Origin: Archangiaceae bacterium
GTDB lineage: Bacteria; Myxococcota; Myxococcia; Myxococcales; Myxococcaceae
Assembly (NCBI GenBank): GCA_016879935.1
Contig: JAACJQ010000229.1
Location: 1 to 57,962 of the forward strand
Length of the DNA: 57,962 nucleotides
Direction of reading: 5' to 3'
How positions within the stretch are numbered: the stretch's first letter is position 1; each line of letters starts with the position of its first letter. The notes beneath the pieces are model-generated. The model saw only the letters and a program-made list of their open reading frames with translations. It was not told the origin of the DNA and did not search any database. Both the position numbers and the translations under genes were made by a program. Shown in pieces: positions 31,925 through 40,056 of this stretch.

Positions 31925-33940
31925 TCAAGGGCAGCCGGCGTCGAGGGCGGGCGCTGGGCTCAAGATGACCTGTGGGCCGATGCTGCAGCTGCCCGGGCCG
32001 CGGAAGAAGAGGCGACCCGATGAGCCTCCGCCACCACCACCCGACGTCGAGGCCGTACCGGCCGTGGGCGGGCCGAGCGCTCCACCTTGACCGCCTTCGC
32101 CGCCCACCGTTGCGCCGCCGCTGCCGCCACTCGCGGGGGTCGACGAGGCGAGTGCTCCATCGGCTCCCGCATTGCCGTCGGCGCCGATGACGATGCCGCC
32201 ACCTTCGCCGCCACCGCCGCCGTTGGCCGTCACTGCGCCGCCCGAGATGACCAGCGTCGTCGCCTCGAGCACCACCATGCCGCCGGAGCCGCCGCCATTG
32301 CCCGCCTTGCCCTTCACGAGCTGATAGGTGCCGCGCGCGCCACCACGGCCGGGGGCGGCGATGACGCCATTGATGCTCATCGTCCCACCCGCAGAGATCT
32401 GAACGGCTCCACCACCTTCGGCGCCAGCGCCCGACTGATCTCCGCCACGGCCACCGCGACAGCCGCCACGCAGCGGCGTCGGGCCGACCTGCGGTTCGGC
32501 ACCCCCAGCCGACGTGGTCGACGTGAAGGAGCCCGCACCGCCTTGTCCTCCCGCGGTCGAGAAGCCTGCGCCGCTGCCGCCCGAGTTGCCCAACGCCTCC
32601 GAGGCGCCATCGTTGCCATTGCCAGCCGTGCACAGCGGCGCACCCGCGCGGGTGACGATCTGCCCGGTGATGTCGACGTCGCCGAACACCGCGAAGATGA
32701 TGGGGCGGCTGCCGACGATGGTGAGGCCTGCGTCGTTCGAGATCGTCAGACCCGACATCGAGACGAGCAGCACCTCGGGCCCGTTCGCCTGCCGAAGCAC
32801 CGTCGCCTCGAAGGGCTGGCCGCGGCACCAGTTGTCGAGGCGCATGTTGCCCGTCGCGCTGGTGTCGATGGTCGTCTCACCGCAGTCGAGCACCGTGGGC
32901 ATCGGCGGCGGCGCCCGCAGATCGGTGATGTCGAAGTTCACCGGCTGGTACGGGAAACGCGGCAGGCAGTCGCCGGCGAGTGTGCAGAGCCCGCCGTCAC
33001 AGCTCGTGCCTGCGTCGACCATCGCGAAGATGCAGCCACCGTCGGCGTTGCACTGGTTGGTGAACGAACGGCACGAGGTGGGCTGGCACGACACGCGCGA
33101 GCCCGAGCAGGTGCCCTGCGCGCTGCAGCGATCGGTGATGGTGCACGAGTCGGAGTCGTCGCAGCCGGCGTCGATCTTCGGCGCGAAGGTGCAGCCGCCA
33201 TCGGCGCAGTTGCCGACGCCTTCGAGGCAGACGTTGCCGCTCTGCACGCAGCTGACCGGTGCTCCGCGGCACCCGCCGTCGAGCTCGCACTTGTCCTGCG
33301 TGGTGCAGACGTCGTTGTCGTCGCACTGCGCGGCCATTGCCACGGAGTACCGGCAGGTGCCGTCGTTGGGCGAGCAGGAGCCCGAGGGCTGGAAGCACGT
33401 GGAGGGTGGGGTGAGGCAGGCTTTCATCTCGCCTCCACCGCAGGAGCCGCTCGAGCAGCGCGTCGACACGAGACACAGGGCCGAGCTGGTGCACGGCTTG
33501 TCGTTGCAGTCCGAGTCTTCGCAATCCTTGGTGCCGTCCTCATCGTCGTCGCGGCCGTCGCTGCACTCGGTCTCGGTCTTCGGGAGCACCTTCTTGAGCG
33601 TCAGCATCACTTCGCGAACGGCCTTCTTGTCGAAGGTGGCGCTCACCAGCAGGCTCTCTTCTCTGGCGCGCGTCTGACAGCCCTCGTCGGCGTAGCCGAG
33701 CGCCCGCACTTCGACCTGATCGGGGAACGTGCCCTGCGCGATGCCGACGAAGACGACGCTCTTGCCGGCGAGGAGCACGGGGTTGCTGTTGCGGCGGGAG
33801 CCGTTGGCGCCGATCTCGAGCTGCATGCACTTCGAGACGAGGTTCGGGTCGATCTTCACCTTGGCGACCAGACCGGCTTCGGTCTCGCGGGGCTTGCAGG
33901 CCGTCATCACGAGCAGGGCTGCCGCAATCCAGGACTTCAT
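31925..33940 (-). CDS. Cys-rich and Gly-rich surface lipoprotein
   Basis: A 671-residue lipoprotein (signal MKSWIAAALLVMTAC, Cys15). An N-terminal beta domain of about 100 residues is followed by the acidic stretch CSDGRDDDEDGTKDCEDSDC. Then come roughly 200 residues of Cys-rich units with repeated C-x-DxD-x-C-Tx-xDxC and DGGC patterns, such as CDDNDVCTTQDKCELDGGC. These look like small disulfide-bonded modules used in myxobacterial and metazoan surface proteins. After a region of about 110 residues with parallel-beta-helix character, the C-terminal 230 residues are Gly-rich (GGGGGGSSGR and similar). No catalytic residues were recognised. It overlaps the upstream hydrolase gene by ATGA. Confidence 0.83.
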   Translation of the reverse strand: MKSWIAAALLVMTACKPRETEAGLVAKVKIDPNLVSKCMQLEIGANGSRRNSNPVLLAGKSVVFVGIAQGTFPDQVEVRALGYADEGCQTRAREESLLVSATFDKKAVREVMLTLKKVLPKTETECSDGRDDDEDGTKDCEDSDCNDKPCTSSALCLVSTRCSSGSCGGGEMKACLTPPSTCFQPSGSCSPNDGTCRYSVAMAAQCDDNDVCTTQDKCELDGGCRGAPVSCVQSGNVCLEGVGNCADGGCTFAPKIDAGCDDSDSCTITDRCSAQGTCSGSRVSCQPTSCRSFTNQCNADGGCIFAMVDAGTSCDGGLCTLAGDCLPRFPYQPVNFDITDLRAPPPMPTVLDCGETTIDTSATGNMRLDNWCRGQPFEATVLRQANGPEVLLVSMSGLTISNDAGLTIVGSRPIIFAVFGDVDITGQIVTRAGAPLCTAGNGNDGASEALGNSGGSGAGFSTAGGQGGAGSFTSTTSAGGAEPQVGPTPLRGGCRGGRGGDQSGAGAEGGGAVQISAGGTMSINGVIAAPGRGGARGTYQLVKGKAGNGGGSGGMVVLEATTLVISGGAVTANGGGGGEGGGIVIGADGNAGADGALASSTPASGGSGGATVGGEGGQGGALGPPTAGTASTSGGGGGGSSGRLFFRGPGSCSIGPQVILSPAPALDAGCP

Positions 33941-35019
33941 GGCGTTCCCTCCGGAACATCGACCCCTTCGCCGAAGCCCAGCACCTTGAAAGGGGCGGGC
34001 TTCGTCAGCAGGGCTGTCTTGAGCGCCTCGACGGGCTCGTCTTCACCGTCGTCTGCGAGGCTGAAGGTGCCGAAGTGCATGGGCACGGCGAGCCGGGCGT
34101 CGAGGTCGATCGCGGCCTGCACCGCCTGGCTCGGAGACATGTGAATCGCCGACATGAACCACTCGGGCCTGAACGCGCCGATGGGGAGCACCGCGAGCCG
34201 CATGGGCCCGAGCTTCTGGGCGATCGTCGCGAAGTGCGGGCCGTAGCCGGTGTCGCCGCCGAAGTAGGCCTTGCCGTTGCGGCCGCCGAGCACCCAGGCG
34301 CTCCACAAGGTGCCGTTCGCGTCGGTGAGGCCGCGATTCGAGAAGTGCTGGTTGGGCACCGAGGTGACGGTGACGTCGCCGACTTGCCGCGACTCCCACC
34401 AGTCGAGCTCGATGCTCTCGATGCCCTTGCTCGCGAGGAAGGCCTTGTTGCCGAGGCCCGCGAAGATCTGCACGCGCGGCCACGTGTCCGAGATGCGCTT
34501 GAGCGTCGCGACGTCGAGGTGATCGTAGTGGTTGTGGCTGAGCACCACCGCGTCGATGCGGGGGAGATCTTCGAAACGAATGCCGGGCGGCCGCACGCGC
34601 TCGGGCCCAGCGATGTCGGTCGGGCTGCAGCGTCGCGAGTACATCGGGTCGGTGAGCACGTTCACGCCGTCGAGCTGAATGAGCGTGGTCGCGTGGTTGA
34701 TGAAGGTGACGTGCATGGCGCCCGGAGCGACGTCGCGAGGCGGCGGTGGGCCGAACGGCTCTTCGCGGTACGGCTTCCACGGGCCTCGTTCGCGGTTCGC
34801 CTGCCACTTGAGCAGGTTCGACAGGCCTTCGAGCGAGCCGAAGGCGCCCGGCATCTTCGGGCCGTTCGGAGTGAAGAACGCTTCGCCGTCGAAGTGCTCC
34901 GACTTCGGGCCGGCCCATCGCGGCCCCGAGAGGGCGCAGCCGACGCCGAGCGCAGAGCTGACGAGCAAGGCCACCACGGAGAGCAGGCCAAGGGTGATGC
35001 GACGGCGACGCGAGGCCAT
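33937..35019 (-). CDS. Metallo-beta-lactamase-fold hydrolase, NAPE-PLD/UlaG-like
   Basis: A 360-residue metal-dependent hydrolase. A hydrophobic N-terminal segment (residues about 8-28) is either an uncleaved anchor or a signal peptide; the lipobox-like GVGC is imperfect. The MBL core carries SHNHYDHLD with the zinc ligands His162, His164, Asp166 and His167, then VPNQHFSNRG, FGGDTGYGPHF and PMHFGTF. This is the arrangement of N-acylphosphatidylethanolamine phospholipase D and UlaG-like proteins. The reaction may be on a phospholipid phosphodiester, but other substrates are possible. A weak TTGGCG-N17-TACACG promoter (35026-35054) sits only 6 bp upstream of the ATG. Confidence 0.87.
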   Translation of the reverse strand: MASRRRRITLGLLSVVALLVSSALGVGCALSGPRWAGPKSEHFDGEAFFTPNGPKMPGAFGSLEGLSNLLKWQANRERGPWKPYREEPFGPPPPRDVAPGAMHVTFINHATTLIQLDGVNVLTDPMYSRRCSPTDIAGPERVRPPGIRFEDLPRIDAVVLSHNHYDHLDVATLKRISDTWPRVQIFAGLGNKAFLASKGIESIELDWWESRQVGDVTVTSVPNQHFSNRGLTDANGTLWSAWVLGGRNGKAYFGGDTGYGPHFATIAQKLGPMRLAVLPIGAFRPEWFMSAIHMSPSQAVQAAIDLDARLAVPMHFGTFSLADDGEDEPVEALKTALLTKPAPFKVLGFGEGVDVPEGTP

Positions 35020-35098: not shown

Positions 35099-36652
35099 GT
35101 GACGATCGCGCCGCTCGCCGGAAATGCGCTCCCGCCCCCGCGCGCCGGGGTGCTCGATGCCCAGGCCGCGCTGGCGGCGATCGTTCAGGGCAGGCTCTCG
35201 ACGAAGCAGCTCGATCGCGTCTCGTACTCCCGAGACATGTGGCCGTTGGCGATGGTGTGGCTCCGACAGGGGCGGGTTCCGCCACCGCCCGACGCCGTGA
35301 TCTGGCCTGGCACCGACGACGAGGTGGCGAAGGTCATTCGCCTCGCGCGTGAACGTCGGCTGGCGGTGATTCCGTTCGGCGCGGGCTCGGGCGTGTGTGG
35401 CGGCACCGTCGCCCTGCACGGTGGGCTCTCGCTCGATCTCAAGCGCTTCGACGGCATCGGTCAGATCGATCCCACGCGGCGCTGCGTCGACGTCGGCGCG
35501 GGCGTGATGGGCGAGACGCTCGAGCGGCGGCTCGAAGCCCGCGGGTGGACGTTGGGGCACTTCCCTTCCTCCATCGCGATGTCGACGGTGGGTGGTTGGC
35601 TCGCGGCGCGCTCGGCCGGCCAGCTCTCGACCCGCTACGGGAAGATCGAAGACATGGTGCTGTCGGTGCGTGGCGTGCTCGGCACCGGTGAGCGCTTCGA
35701 GACGCCGGAGCGTCCCTTCGACGGCCCCGACCTGTCGCAGCTGCTGATCGGCTCCGAAGGCACGCTCTGTGCGTTCACCGGGGTTCGGCTGCGCGTTCAC
35801 CCTCGAGCCGAGGCACGCGTGTTTCGAGCGTTCGACGTGCCGTCGGTGGAGCGTGGGCTCGAGCTGATTCGGCGCGTGCTGCGTGAGGGCCTGCGACCCG
35901 CCGTCGTACGTCTCTACGACCCGTTCGACACGGTGCTGGTCGGGCGACAGAAACCGGCGAGCGCGCACCGCAGCCCGTCACGGCGCTCCGGCTTCGAGGC
36001 GACGGTGCTGCCGGGGCTGCTGAAGACGCTCGCCTCGCAGACGCTGGGCCGGCCGAAGCTGCTCAACCCGCTCGCGCAGCTGGCGAAGAAGAGCCGGCTC
36101 GTCTTCATGTTCGAGGGTGAGGCGAAACACGCCGACGCGGAAGATCGCGCGGCCGCTGCGGCGTGTCTGTCGATGGGCGGCCATGATCTCGGCGAAGGCC
36201 CGGCGCGCGAGTGGTTTCACAAGCGCTACGACGTGAACTTCCGCCTGCCGCGCCTGATGGAGTCAGGCACCTTCGTCGACACCATGGAGGTCTCGGCCTC
36301 GTGGGACGTCGTGCAGGACGTCTACGAGCGCGTGCGGGCCGCGGCGTCGTCGTACGCGCTCGTGCTCTGCCACTTCAGCCACGCGTACGCAGAAGGGTGC
36401 TCGCTCTATTTCAGCTTCGTCGGCTCGGCTCCGAGTGAAGAGGCGATCGAAGAGCGCTACCAGGCGCTGTGGCGTTCGGCCTTGAGCGCGGCGACGAGCG
36501 CGGGCGCGAACGTGAGTCACCACCACGGCATCGGGTTGCTCAAGGCGCGCGCCTACCAGGACTCGTTGGGTGAAGGCCGTCACGCGCTGGCAACGCTGAA
36601 GCGACTGTTCGATCCCGATGGGATCATGAACCCGGGGAAGCTCGGCCTGTGA
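35099..36652 (+). CDS. FAD-linked oxidase, alkyl-DHAP-synthase (AGPS)-like
   Basis: A 517-residue flavoprotein of the vanillyl-alcohol-oxidase/PCMH family. FAD-binding motifs are PFGAGSGVCGG and STVGGWLAARSAGQLSTRYG, the latter close to the AGPS block that ends in YGNIEDLV (here YGKIEDMVL). The C-terminal half has CHFSHAYAEGCSLYFSF and VSHHHGIG (His474-476), resembling the Tyr and triple-His catalytic region of alkylglycerone-phosphate synthase; glycolate and lactate oxidases instead have GEHGVG. AGPS swaps the acyl group of acyl-DHAP for a fatty alcohol to start ether-lipid synthesis. The GTG start lies 79 bp from the divergent hydrolase. It is coupled by GTGA to the next gene, heading a five-gene operon. 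AGPS activity is likely but unproven. Confidence 0.85.
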   Translation: MTIAPLAGNALPPPRAGVLDAQAALAAIVQGRLSTKQLDRVSYSRDMWPLAMVWLRQGRVPPPPDAVIWPGTDDEVAKVIRLARERRLAVIPFGAGSGVCGGTVALHGGLSLDLKRFDGIGQIDPTRRCVDVGAGVMGETLERRLEARGWTLGHFPSSIAMSTVGGWLAARSAGQLSTRYGKIEDMVLSVRGVLGTGERFETPERPFDGPDLSQLLIGSEGTLCAFTGVRLRVHPRAEARVFRAFDVPSVERGLELIRRVLREGLRPAVVRLYDPFDTVLVGRQKPASAHRSPSRRSGFEATVLPGLLKTLASQTLGRPKLLNPLAQLAKKSRLVFMFEGEAKHADAEDRAAAAACLSMGGHDLGEGPAREWFHKRYDVNFRLPRLMESGTFVDTMEVSASWDVVQDVYERVRAAASSYALVLCHFSHAYAEGCSLYFSFVGSAPSEEAIEERYQALWRSALSAATSAGANVSHHHGIGLLKARAYQDSLGEGRHALATLKRLFDPDGIMNPGKLGL

Positions 36653-37623
36653 AGACCCTGCTCGAGTCACTCGGTTCGATCGCGCGCCAGGCCGGTGACG
36701 GGCTCGTCTTGAGGCCGCGGTCGGAGCGCGAGCTCGCCAGCGCGTTGATGGTGCTTCGAGATCGCCAGCTGGCGCTCGGTGAAGGCGTGACGCTCGATCG
36801 CGGCGGCTTCGATCGGCTCGGCCGGCTCGACGATCGCAGCATGACGATCGACGTCGGCGCGGGGGTGCCCGTGCGTGAACTCGAAACCCGGATCAACCTT
36901 CAGCGGTTGACGTTGGGTGCGCTCGCGCCGGCCGCGTGGGACGCCACCGTGGGGTCGCTCGTCGAAGATCCGTCGCTCGGGTTTCGAGTGATCGTCCCCG
37001 GCCGCCTGGAGCCGCTCGCGGTGCGCGTCACCGGTGTGCTGCCCGATGGCGCGGTCGTCACGTCGTCTCCGGGGCCTCGGCACGCCGTCGGGCCCGATCT
37101 CGCGTCGCTGCTGATCGGCGGCGGTGGCGTGCTGGGCCTCGTCACCAGCGCGACCCTGCGCTTGATGCCCCTGCCTCAGGACGAGCAGCGCCGCCTCTAT
37201 TCGTTCGCGAGCCACGCCGACGCGCTCGAGGCGCTGCGCGAGTCGTTGTCGGCTGGAGCGTCGTTCGCGCGAGTCGTCGTTCGCGGCAGGGCAGGGCGAA
37301 TCATCGTCGAGGTCACGGTGCGTGGCTCCGCGGGGCAGGTCGAGCGCGAGCTGGCCCTGATCGGTCGCTGCGCCGAGTCGACCTCGGGTCGGTTCGAAGG
37401 CCAGGGTCGTGAAGCCGAGGTCGATGGCGCCGCGCATGAGGTCACGTGGTCAGACGTCGCGAGCGCCCTGGCGCAGGGCGCGTCGGTCGAGCTCTTCCGC
37501 GTCTCGCTCTCGACGGTGATCGCGCGTGGCGTCGGCGTGCGCACCTTCGTCCCTCCGAGTCCGCTCATGCGCTCGTTGAAGGACGTCTTCGATCGCGCAC
37601 GAGTGCTGGGGAGGTTGCCGTGA
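36649..37623 (+). CDS. FAD-binding PCMH-domain protein, GlcE-like
   Basis: A 324-residue protein with a compact FAD-binding PCMH domain and little else, like the GlcE subunit of glycolate oxidase. The family segments DVGAGVPVRELETRI and LLIGGGGVLGLVTSATLRL are clear, but the usual P-G-GS/TG FAD loop is weak, so flavin binding is uncertain. Start (GTG) and stop overlap neighbours by GTGA on both sides, pointing to fixed stoichiometry with the AGPS-like and Fe-S proteins. The role is probably that of an accessory flavin subunit passing electrons to the Fe-S partner. Confidence 0.83.
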   Translation: MKTLLESLGSIARQAGDGLVLRPRSERELASALMVLRDRQLALGEGVTLDRGGFDRLGRLDDRSMTIDVGAGVPVRELETRINLQRLTLGALAPAAWDATVGSLVEDPSLGFRVIVPGRLEPLAVRVTGVLPDGAVVTSSPGPRHAVGPDLASLLIGGGGVLGLVTSATLRLMPLPQDEQRRLYSFASHADALEALRESLSAGASFARVVVRGRAGRIIVEVTVRGSAGQVERELALIGRCAESTSGRFEGQGREAEVDGAAHEVTWSDVASALAQGASVELFRVSLSTVIARGVGVRTFVPPSPLMRSLKDVFDRARVLGRLP

Positions 37624-38711
37624 CCGATCACCGCCGGCTCGAGCAGGCCACGTCGACCTGTTCGTACTGCCCAAAGGCGTGCCGCTTCTCGTGCCCCGTC
37701 TCGGAGGCGACGCAGAACGAGTCGCTGTCGGCGTGGGGCAAGATGTCGGCGGCGCATCACGTCGTGGCCGAGAAGAAGCCCATCGACGTCGAGGTCTCTG
37801 CCGCGGTGCATGCGTGTACGGGTTGTGGCCGCTGCACCAGCTTCTGCAAACACGAGAACGACGTGGGCCCGACGTTGTTCGCCGCGCGGGGCGAGGCCGT
37901 GAAGGCCGGGCTGCAGCCACGCGGAGCCGCCTCGACGCTCGCGACGTTTCATCAGGCACAGAACCCGTTCGGTCGTGAGCTCGGTTCACTCGTGGCCTCG
38001 TGGCGGGCTCAGCGGCCGGTCCGGTACCCACTCTTTCCAGGCTGCTCCACGCTCGTGAAGCGCCCCGGCCTGCTCGAGCAGACGATCGCCGTGTCCGATG
38101 CGTTCGGCGCGCCCATGGGCGTCGCGAAGTCGGCGTCGAAGTGCTGCGGGTACCCGCTCTATGCCGCGGGCTCGTTCGACGCGTTCGCTGCCCACGCGAA
38201 GTCGGTGGCCGAGGCCTTCGTCGAGACGCCCGAGGTCGCAGTGCTCGACGCGGGCTGTGCCTTCACCTTCCGAAAGCTCTACCCCGAGTTCGGTGTTCGC
38301 CTGCCCACGCGCATTCGTACGGTGATCGAGGTGCTGCACGAGAACCTGCCGCACGCTCCCGAGCGCAAGCCGCTGCCGCAGCGGGTCGGCTACCATGACG
38401 CCTGTCACCTCGGCCGCGGGCTGGGGCTGTACGACGAACCGCGCGCGCTGCTGGCGAGGGCCGTCATCACCATCGTCGAAGCGCCATCGGTGCGTCGCGA
38501 AGGGGGCTGTGCGGGCGGAGGCGGGCTGCTGCCGCGCACGATGGTCGAGACGTCGGTCGAGATGGCGCGCCGTCAGGCGCTCGAGATCTCGGACGACGCC
38601 AACGTCACGATGGTGACCGGCTGCCCAACCTCGACTCGAATGTTCGAACGCGCTGGCCGGCGTGCGATGGATCTCATCAGTGTTCTCGAGCAGTGGGTGA
38701 CCCAACCATGA
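37620..38711 (+). CDS. Two-cluster Fe-S protein with CCG domains, GlcF/HdrD-like
   Basis: A 363-residue electron-transfer protein. The GTG at 37620 is set by the GTGA overlap; the longer open frame upstream is in the preceding gene. N-terminal clusters are CSYCPKACRFSCP and CTGCGRCTSFCKHE. The C-terminal region has two cysteine-rich CCG units: PGCSTLVKR...KCCGYPLY and YHDACHLG...GCAGGGG. The second lacks the first Cys of the usual Cys-Cys-Gly, so it may bind its metal site differently. GlcF and LutA-type proteins accept electrons from flavin subunits and reduce quinone. The neighbours suggest the same role here. Confidence 0.87.
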   Translation: MTDHRRLEQATSTCSYCPKACRFSCPVSEATQNESLSAWGKMSAAHHVVAEKKPIDVEVSAAVHACTGCGRCTSFCKHENDVGPTLFAARGEAVKAGLQPRGAASTLATFHQAQNPFGRELGSLVASWRAQRPVRYPLFPGCSTLVKRPGLLEQTIAVSDAFGAPMGVAKSASKCCGYPLYAAGSFDAFAAHAKSVAEAFVETPEVAVLDAGCAFTFRKLYPEFGVRLPTRIRTVIEVLHENLPHAPERKPLPQRVGYHDACHLGRGLGLYDEPRALLARAVITIVEAPSVRREGGCAGGGGLLPRTMVETSVEMARRQALEISDDANVTMVTGCPTSTRMFERAGRRAMDLISVLEQWVTQP

Positions 38712-39622
38712 AGACCTTCTTCGTCGTGAACCCGAAGAGCGCGAACGGCTCGACGGGAAAGCGCTGGGGCGAATTGGCGGCGACGATCGCGCGCTCGTTG
38801 TCCGACTTCGGGGTCGAGTTCACCCAGAAGCCGATGGACGCGATGAACATCACCCGTCACGCCATCAAGTCCGGCTACGAGTGCATCGTCGCGGTCGGCG
38901 GAGACGGCACCATCAACGAGGTCACCAACGGCTTCTTCGAGGGCGGCAAGGCCATCAACGCGAACGCGGCGCTCGGCGTGCTGCCTCGCGGAACCGGCGG
39001 CGACTTTCGCAAGACGTTCGAGTGGTCGACCGACTTCGAAGAAGCGGTGAAGCGGCTCAAGACGCCCGAGACGCGGCCCTTCGACGTGGGCGTGTGCGAG
39101 TTCGTCGATCACCAGGGCCAGAAGGTGACGCGGTACTTCGCGAACATTCTCTCGTTCGGCATCTCGGGGCTGGTCGATCGTGAGGTCGCGGCGATGAAGG
39201 GCTTCGGCGGGCGCATCGGCTTCTCGCTCGCGTCACTCCGGGCCCTCACGAAGTACCGCGACCACGCCGTCAAGCTGACTCTCGATGGCAAGCCCGCCGA
39301 GACGCTGCCCATCACCGTGGTGGCAGTCGGCAACGGGCGCTTCTTCGGCGGAGGCATGAAGGTGACTCCGAACGCCGACGTGAGTGACGGCATCTTCGAC
39401 GTCACCTACTGGAGCGGCTACACGCTCTCGGACTTCATCTTCAAGCAGGGCGGCATCTACAACGGCAAACACCTCGACTACCCCGGCACGTCGACGCGCC
39501 AGTGCAAGGAGCTGATCGCCGAGTCCGATGGCGAGGTGTTGATCGACTGTGACGGTGAGCAGCCCGGCCGGCTGCCGTGCAAGGTGTCGATCCTCCCGGC
39601 GGCGATTCGACTGAAGGTATGA
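38708..39622 (+). CDS. Diacylglycerol kinase-like lipid kinase (DagK/YegS family)
   Basis: A 304-residue soluble lipid kinase. The ATG at 38708 overlaps the preceding stop (ATGA). The catalytic domain begins with VVNPKSANGSTG and contains the nucleotide-binding VGGDGTINEV (GGDGT at residues 64-68) and LGVLPRGTGGDF. The C-terminal half carries VVAVGNGRFFGGGMKVTP and the final LIDCDGEQPG block. Family members phosphorylate diacylglycerol, sphingosine or, in bacteria, diacylglycerol and phosphatidylglycerol-related lipids. Being fourth in the AGPS-like operon, it may act on an ether-linked or alkyl-glycerol lipid, which is inference. Confidence 0.92.
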   Translation: MKTFFVVNPKSANGSTGKRWGELAATIARSLSDFGVEFTQKPMDAMNITRHAIKSGYECIVAVGGDGTINEVTNGFFEGGKAINANAALGVLPRGTGGDFRKTFEWSTDFEEAVKRLKTPETRPFDVGVCEFVDHQGQKVTRYFANILSFGISGLVDREVAAMKGFGGRIGFSLASLRALTKYRDHAVKLTLDGKPAETLPITVVAVGNGRFFGGGMKVTPNADVSDGIFDVTYWSGYTLSDFIFKQGGIYNGKHLDYPGTSTRQCKELIAESDGEVLIDCDGEQPGRLPCKVSILPAAIRLKV

Positions 39623-40056
39623 GCGTGCTCGGTGCCTTTCCCGTTCGGCTCACGCTGCCCGTGCAGTGGGGCGAGATGGATGCGTTTCACCACGTGAACA
39701 ACGTGCACTACCTGCGCTGGTTCGAGTCGGCGCGCATCACGTACTTCGCGGCACTCGGAATCGCGATCGAGCTCGACGGCAGCCCGAAGCTCCGCCCGAT
39801 TCTCGCGCGCTCGACCATCGACTACCGCGCACCCGTCACGTTCCCCGACACGGTCACCGTCGAGGCCACCACGAAGTCGTTCGGCACCACGAGCTTCGTC
39901 ATGGGCTACCGGCTCTCGAGCGCTGCGCAACAGCGCGTCGTCGCCGAAGGAGACTCGGTGATCGTGCTGCTCGACGGCGCGGGCAACAAGACGCCGCTCA
40001 CCGACGAGCTCAAGGCGCGCATTCACGCGCTCGAGGTCAGTACCGCTTCTCGCTGA
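39619..40056 (+). CDS. Hot-dog fold acyl-CoA thioesterase (4HBT family)
   Basis: A 145-residue thioesterase. The ATG at 39619 overlaps the lipid-kinase stop (ATGA). The active-site stretch is WGEMDAFHHVNNVHYLRWFE, with the Asp-x-Phe-x-His-Val-Asn-Asn pattern of FadM/4HBT thioesterases. Next comes STIDYRAPVTFPDTVTVE, typical of the rest of the fold. It is the last gene of the five-gene operon and its 3' end overlaps the convergent lipoprotein gene by 20 bp. Hydrolysis of a fatty acyl-CoA, or release of acyl groups used upstream, is a reasonable guess. Confidence 0.9.
   Translation: MSVLGAFPVRLTLPVQWGEMDAFHHVNNVHYLRWFESARITYFAALGIAIELDGSPKLRPILARSTIDYRAPVTFPDTVTVEATTKSFGTTSFVMGYRLSSAAQQRVVAEGDSVIVLLDGAGNKTPLTDELKARIHALEVSTASR

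Follow-up and report, generated by a model that had tools for sequence, protein, structure and literature searches.

An AGPS-like flavoprotein with a degenerate twin, a GlpC-like protein, and a lipid kinase: a candidate lipid-oxidizing operon in Myxococcota

The window analyzed here, 57,962 nucleotides of contig JAACJQ010000229.1 from an Archangiaceae bacterium, includes a five-gene operon at 35099–40056 on the forward strand that is built on a flavoprotein of the AGPS superfamily. A human peroxisomal disease traces back to AGPS (alkylglycerone-phosphate synthase), which is also regarded as a model redox-neutral flavoenzyme. In the operon, the AGPS-like protein (gene A) is followed by a degenerate paralogue of itself (gene B), a GlpC-like iron–sulfur (Fe-S) protein (gene C), a lipid kinase (gene D), and a thioesterase (gene E). 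The five reading frames are all open and are chained by four exact 4-bp stop/start overlaps on the forward strand, GTGA between A and B (36649–36652) and between B and C (37620–37623), and ATGA between C and D (38708–38711) and between D and E (39619–39622). All four were read directly in the sequence, as a preliminary description of this DNA had reported. The reading that we favor, and hold tentatively, is that A, B, and C would make up one lipid-oxidizing enzyme fed by D, in which a lipid of the glycerol-3-phosphate (G3P) type is taken to the dihydroxyacetone phosphate (DHAP) level and the electrons leave through C.

Gene A (35099–36652, forward strand, 517 aa) is the predicted catalytic subunit. 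It has the Pfam domains FAD_binding_4 and FAD-oxidase_C and carries CHFSHAYAEGCSLYFSF and SHHHGIG blocks. Its best PDB sequence matches are the AGPS proteins of Dictyostelium (2.4e-52) and guinea pig (1.9e-48), with D-lactate dehydrogenase behind (3e-33). In a tree of 118 proteins, A groups with AGPS at a Shimodaira–Hasegawa-like approximate likelihood ratio test (SH-aLRT) value of 100, and GlcD, LDHD, LctD, and the 2-hydroxyglutarate-type dehydrogenases fall on the opposite side. The true AGPS proteins (animal, Dictyostelium, and one Myxococcaceae copy, which scores 505 bits against guinea pig AGPS) form a clade of their own in this tree, and the A family lies outside it. The guinea pig residues His300, Arg419, Tyr578, and His615–617 correspond to H154, R271, Y437, and H474–476 of A, which are invariant in a 37-member alignment; at the mapped sites, the dehydrogenases have Pro/Val, Glu, Leu/Ile, and GEH. 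Where GlcD and LDHD have the second metal-binding His of HxGDGNxH, A has Ser435, and the GEHG motif is also absent from it. The tree, the PDB matches, and the retained residues thus bear out the earlier suggestion that the first gene is AGPS-like, and it does not cluster with D-lactate or glycolate dehydrogenases.

The likeness to AGPS has a limit at one site. According to a review of AGPS (PMC3509576), three residues of the Dictyostelium protein matter for catalysis: Arg352, Tyr508, and Arg447. Arg352 and Tyr508 are kept in A as R271 and Y437 and are invariant in the alignment of the A family. Arg447 (guinea pig Arg515) is absent: A has L383 at its position, and most of the family have Gln, Met, or Leu there; 76 of 97 members carry an Arg or Lys at the residue just before. 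Because this catalytic arginine, one tested defining feature, is missing, A is named AGPS-like and not AGPS. The predicted model of A has a mean predicted local distance difference test (pLDDT) score of 87, and in a fold search the structures of AGPS and D-lactate dehydrogenase tie (Z 36 and 37). Since the fold search fails to separate the two, the placement of A on the AGPS side is argued from the tree and the residues.

Gene B (36649–37623, forward strand, 324 aa) has a partial FAD_binding_4 domain, which invites the label GlcE, and the preliminary description had called it GlcE-like. Direct comparison rules that label out: against B, A scores 55.5 bits and Dictyostelium AGPS 39.4, but E. 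coli GlcE only 13.4. The window B has neither the catalytic motifs nor the region of the FAD P-loop. The B-position genes of loci L062 and L094 encode full-length AGPS-like proteins in which the Tyr and HHH motifs are broken, to G and HVY in L062 (485 aa; 256 bits to the window A) and to L and HHR in L094 (463 aa; 166 bits). A joint tree of A and B unites eight B sequences in a single clade, placed on the AGPS side (SH-aLRT 97). In that tree the window B has a long branch of unstable position, and it is assigned instead by its pairwise and profile scores; searched against the PDB, a profile built from 26 B proteins matches AGPS best (E 4.8e-53). The AlphaFold model of B (pLDDT 91) has the same fold as A, and in its fold search AGPS and D-lactate dehydrogenase are again not told apart. 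Among the Polyangiaceae, Sorangium included, a remnant of B is fused to the C terminus of A or overlaps its end. Most simply, then, B is a degenerate duplicate of A that is still physically tied to it, and it is predicted to be a noncatalytic partner.

Gene C (37620–38711, forward strand, 363 aa), the predicted electron carrier, has the Pfam domains Fer4_8 and CCG, with two 4Fe-4S motifs, one being CSYCPKACRFSCP and the other a further CxxC group. The earlier labeling of this gene as a GlcF-like Fe-S/CCG protein holds for the Fe-S/CCG part and fails for the GlcF part. Among NCBIfam models, C scores 95.5 bits to TfrB, 74.1 to GlpC, and 19.3 to GlcF, for which the cut-off is 333; compared directly with the E. 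coli proteins, it scores 43.2 bits to GlpC and 19.7 to GlcF. It is therefore not a GlcF orthologue and is described as GlpC/TfrB-like. Gene D (38708–39622, forward strand, 304 aa) has the domains DAGK_cat and YegS_C. Its TIGR00147 score of 139.9 bits (cut-off 118.65) and its GGDGTINE motif place it among the YegS/Rv2252/BmrU lipid kinases. The second motif reads GTGGD in the window D and in every D homologue where it was recovered, whereas two other DAGK_cat proteins of the genome have GTGN. The form GTGGDF, standing for GTGN in the nucleotide-binding loop, marks a kinase subfamily tied to A.

The conservation of the set was assessed in 80 loci from public genomes, which were classified by hand and then tallied, with genes grouped by predicted-gene clustering. 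Near A, B (separate or fused) is found in 60 of these loci, C in 41, D in 24, and a G3P dehydrogenase in 8. Of the 35 loci that have an unfused A and are covered for 4.5 kb or more downstream, 29 have C, 22 have B, and 20 have D. Relatives at 60–80% identity share the order A-B-C-D(-E), and distant lineages, at about 38–48%, still have A-B-C-D or A-C-D, which argues that the gene order is more than chance. A-B-C-D occurs across Myxococcota, A-C-D in Bacillota, and A-C with GlpA or glpABC in archaea. The proposed coupling of the first gene with electron transfer and a lipid kinase is therefore upheld, and the linkage recurs elsewhere. The spread into Bacillota and archaea also means that the set is not peculiar to the ether lipids of myxobacterial development, a context that the preliminary description had found suggestive. 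Gene E (39619–40056, forward strand, 145 aa) is a 4HBT hot-dog thioesterase (4HBT_2, PF13279), as had been proposed. Only the window clade and Archangium-type loci have it next to the operon, so it is a clade-specific last gene and not part of the widely conserved core. At the level of genomes, 90 of 193 sampled Myxococcota have a match at 1e-80, about 68 of them of the A family and the rest AGPS proper, a split made by score only. Within the window's family, no genome in this sample has both an A-family and a true AGPS protein, but the two classes are clumped by genus and no mutual exclusion is claimed. In L089 (6705–12004) and other Polyangiaceae, including Sorangium, a gene that resembles phosphatidylserine decarboxylase (Psd; named from sequence) and a methyltransferase-like gene stand just upstream of the A-B fusion.

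G3P dehydrogenase genes recur beside A homologues. The eight loci with glpA/glpB/glpC or glpD include two archaea and one actinomycete; GlpA, GlpB, and GlpC adjoin A in L045, L048, and L080, the arrangement is A-C-GlpA in L114, and GlpD precedes A in L111. The host genome itself has a second AGPS-superfamily gene, which lies between a FadR-type regulator and GlpD (L124:4628–8994, contig C89). This trio is kept in a congener (G006), and the AGPS-like/GlpD pair in another genus (G013). Taken together, the gene neighborhoods suggest a recurring theme in which an AGPS-like flavoprotein is joined to an electron-transferring G3P-type dehydrogenase module and a lipid kinase. The window operon has no such dehydrogenase, and B and the GlpC-like C are found in its stead. 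A third AGPS-superfamily protein of the host (L123:6508–8265, contig C432) lacks the SHHHG motif, and no lipid genes were detected beside it.

Parts of this theme can be recognized in known systems. In Pseudomonas aeruginosa, the genes PA3026–PA3023 are activated by GliR together with a phospholipase C and are proposed to lead to alkylglycerone phosphate (PMC8151288). Like the window operon, they combine an FAD oxidoreductase, a quinone-type dehydrogenase, and a YegS-type kinase (PMC8151288), with PA3026 compared by its description. Unlike it, they use GlpD and a carbohydrate kinase, and no degenerate paralogue or CCG protein is reported. In Mycobacterium tuberculosis, the flavoprotein Rv2251 is one that we take to be kin to A. 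One locus there holds Rv2249c (glpD1), Rv2251, and the diacylglycerol kinase Rv2252 (PMC4564863), and neither B nor C is listed in it. E. coli glpABC is similar in that C resembles GlpC and that glpABC stands beside A homologues in some genomes, but the window operon lacks GlpA and GlpB, with no DAO-fold gene by Pfam among its five. The eukaryotic and Myxococcus AGPS enzymes (EC 2.5.1.26; MXAN_1676) share with A the fold, the side of the tree, and the residues equivalent to guinea pig His300, Arg419, Tyr578, and His615–617. They differ in that A lacks the third catalytic Arg, lies on a separate branch, and has other operon partners. MXAN_1676–1674 encode AGPS, a FAR/GNPAT-like protein, and an epimerase (PMC9131029). 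The window operon is not orthologous to that set, as no FAR/GNPAT-like and epimerase genes follow A. A paper on archaeal ether-lipid synteny (PMC3197636) proved unrelated to the operon. AGPS homologues as such have already been widely noted; no description of the A-B-C-D set or of a degenerate AGPS paralogue was found in the literature searched, which did not cover subscription papers.

Starting from the gene inventory, we infer how these parts could work together: which of them form a complex, what the substrate and the electron acceptor would be, and which direction the reaction would take. In the proposed complex, A would be the AGPS-type flavoprotein, B a bound noncatalytic paralogue, and C the GlpC-like Fe-S component. 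D would supply the substrate by phosphorylating a glycerolipid (a monoacyl-, alkyl-, or diacylglycerol), and A-B-C would turn the resulting G3P-type lipid into the ketone (DHAP-type) form on which AGPS flavin chemistry works. C would pass the electrons towards the quinone pool, and the sn-1 chain could then be removed or exchanged at the flavin of A. AGPS chemistry requires a DHAP (ketone) lipid and an oxidized flavin (PMC3509576). Redox partners for a redox-neutral type of enzyme would be explicable because the module could shift lipids between the G3P and DHAP levels.

Oxidative turnover or remodeling is more likely than net synthesis. Oxidation or breakdown is favored because of FadR at the sister locus, the GlpD and GlpABC neighbors, and the archaeal members. 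Some room for synthesis is left by the Psd-like neighbors in Polyangiaceae and by genes elsewhere in the host. These are an ElbD-like FAR/AMP-ligase/ACP/acyltransferase protein of 1469 aa with an ElbE-like epimerase after it (L126:1502–6936, contig C149) and a homologue of the desaturase CarF on contig C430, and they make it likely that the host produces ether lipids and plasmalogens. An ether lipid is only a candidate substrate of the set, and one AGPS catalytic Arg is missing. Oxygen-independent ether-lipid cleavage is a narrower and unlikely version of the scheme: D would make 1-O-alkyl-G3P, A-B-C would oxidize it to 1-O-alkyl-DHAP with the electrons going to quinone, and reversed AGPS chemistry would free the fatty alcohol. 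The one enzyme known to degrade alkylglycerols is said to be the monooxygenase AGMO (PMC7911779). Several points weigh against lipid oxidation by A-B-C in any form. Support for a lipid substrate is indirect, the window operon has no G3P dehydrogenase, and the CCG domains of the window C miss some canonical Cys residues. Polyangiaceae have A-B with no C and D nearby, so these are either dispensable there or located elsewhere. Deletion of the P. aeruginosa operon gave no growth phenotype (PMC8151288).

It is somewhat unlikely that A is instead a working AGPS in ether-lipid synthesis, turning acyl-DHAP and a fatty alcohol into alkyl-DHAP. B would then be structural, D would salvage alkylglycerol, and C would keep the flavin oxidized, as AGPS requires (PMC3509576), or recycle electrons between acyl-G3P oxidation and alkyl-DHAP reduction. 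Most AGPS active-site residues are retained in A, the host has the ElbD-type FAR/ACS/ACP/acyltransferase protein and CarF and no MXAN_1676-type AGPS, and the Psd-like gene lies near the Polyangiaceae A-B fusions. The replacement of Dictyostelium Arg447 by Leu, Gln, or Met speaks against it, as do the archaeal homologues of A, and the recurrent linkage to G3P dehydrogenases and GlpC-like proteins is left unexplained. Nearly all relatives have ElbD, whether or not they have A, and the co-occurrence of CarF is uninformative about A.

The GlpC-like character of C and the glpAB genes beside A in L045, L048, and L080 could also point to an analogue of GlpABC, in which A-B-C would oxidize a small phosphorylated polyol (G3P or a relative) and D would be an unrelated lipid kinase. 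This is quite unlikely, since GlpA is also present in those three loci, so that A would do something else; moreover, the host genome already has G3P dehydrogenase genes, and D accompanies A in 24 of the 80 loci and carries a signature motif of its own. A 2-hydroxyacid (glycolate or D-lactate) dehydrogenase of the glcDEF type is very improbable. The order of an FAD protein, an FAD-domain protein, and an Fe-S/CCG protein matches E. coli glcDEF in domain types, and the fold is shared, with the tie in Z noted above. The tree contradicts it, A lacks the metal-ligand His and the GEHG motif and has the AGPS residues, and a GlcD-type gene sits elsewhere in the genome. With B an AGPS paralogue and C nearer GlpC than GlcF, the glcDEF analogy drawn in the preliminary description falls away.

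The host is represented by a 9.5 Mb draft genome, with the window in contig C174, and its nearest named relatives are Archangium and Myxococcaceae metagenome-assembled genomes. Divergent from the operon is a gene for a NAPE-PLD-like hydrolase of the metallo-beta-lactamase fold (33937–35019, reverse strand; human NAPE-PLD 4qn9, E 2.5e-56), and its position relative to the operon is kept in the window genus and in Archangium-type loci. This only suggests that it may act in the same pathway, to which it would add a phospholipid context. Beyond it, 31925–33940 on the reverse strand encodes a protein of 671 aa that is rich in Cys and Gly, seems to carry a signal peptide, and matches no Pfam family.

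Surveys that equate AGPS homologues with makers of ether lipids may include genes of the A kind; one such survey counted homologues at E below 1e-30 and 30% identity (PMC11868695). A widespread prokaryotic branch of AGPS that retains most of the active site and comes with a degenerate twin and with a GlpC-like carrier or G3P dehydrogenases would illuminate the relation between AGPS chemistry and redox chemistry. It may also represent a missing step in the bacterial making or breaking of ether lipids and other glycerolipids.

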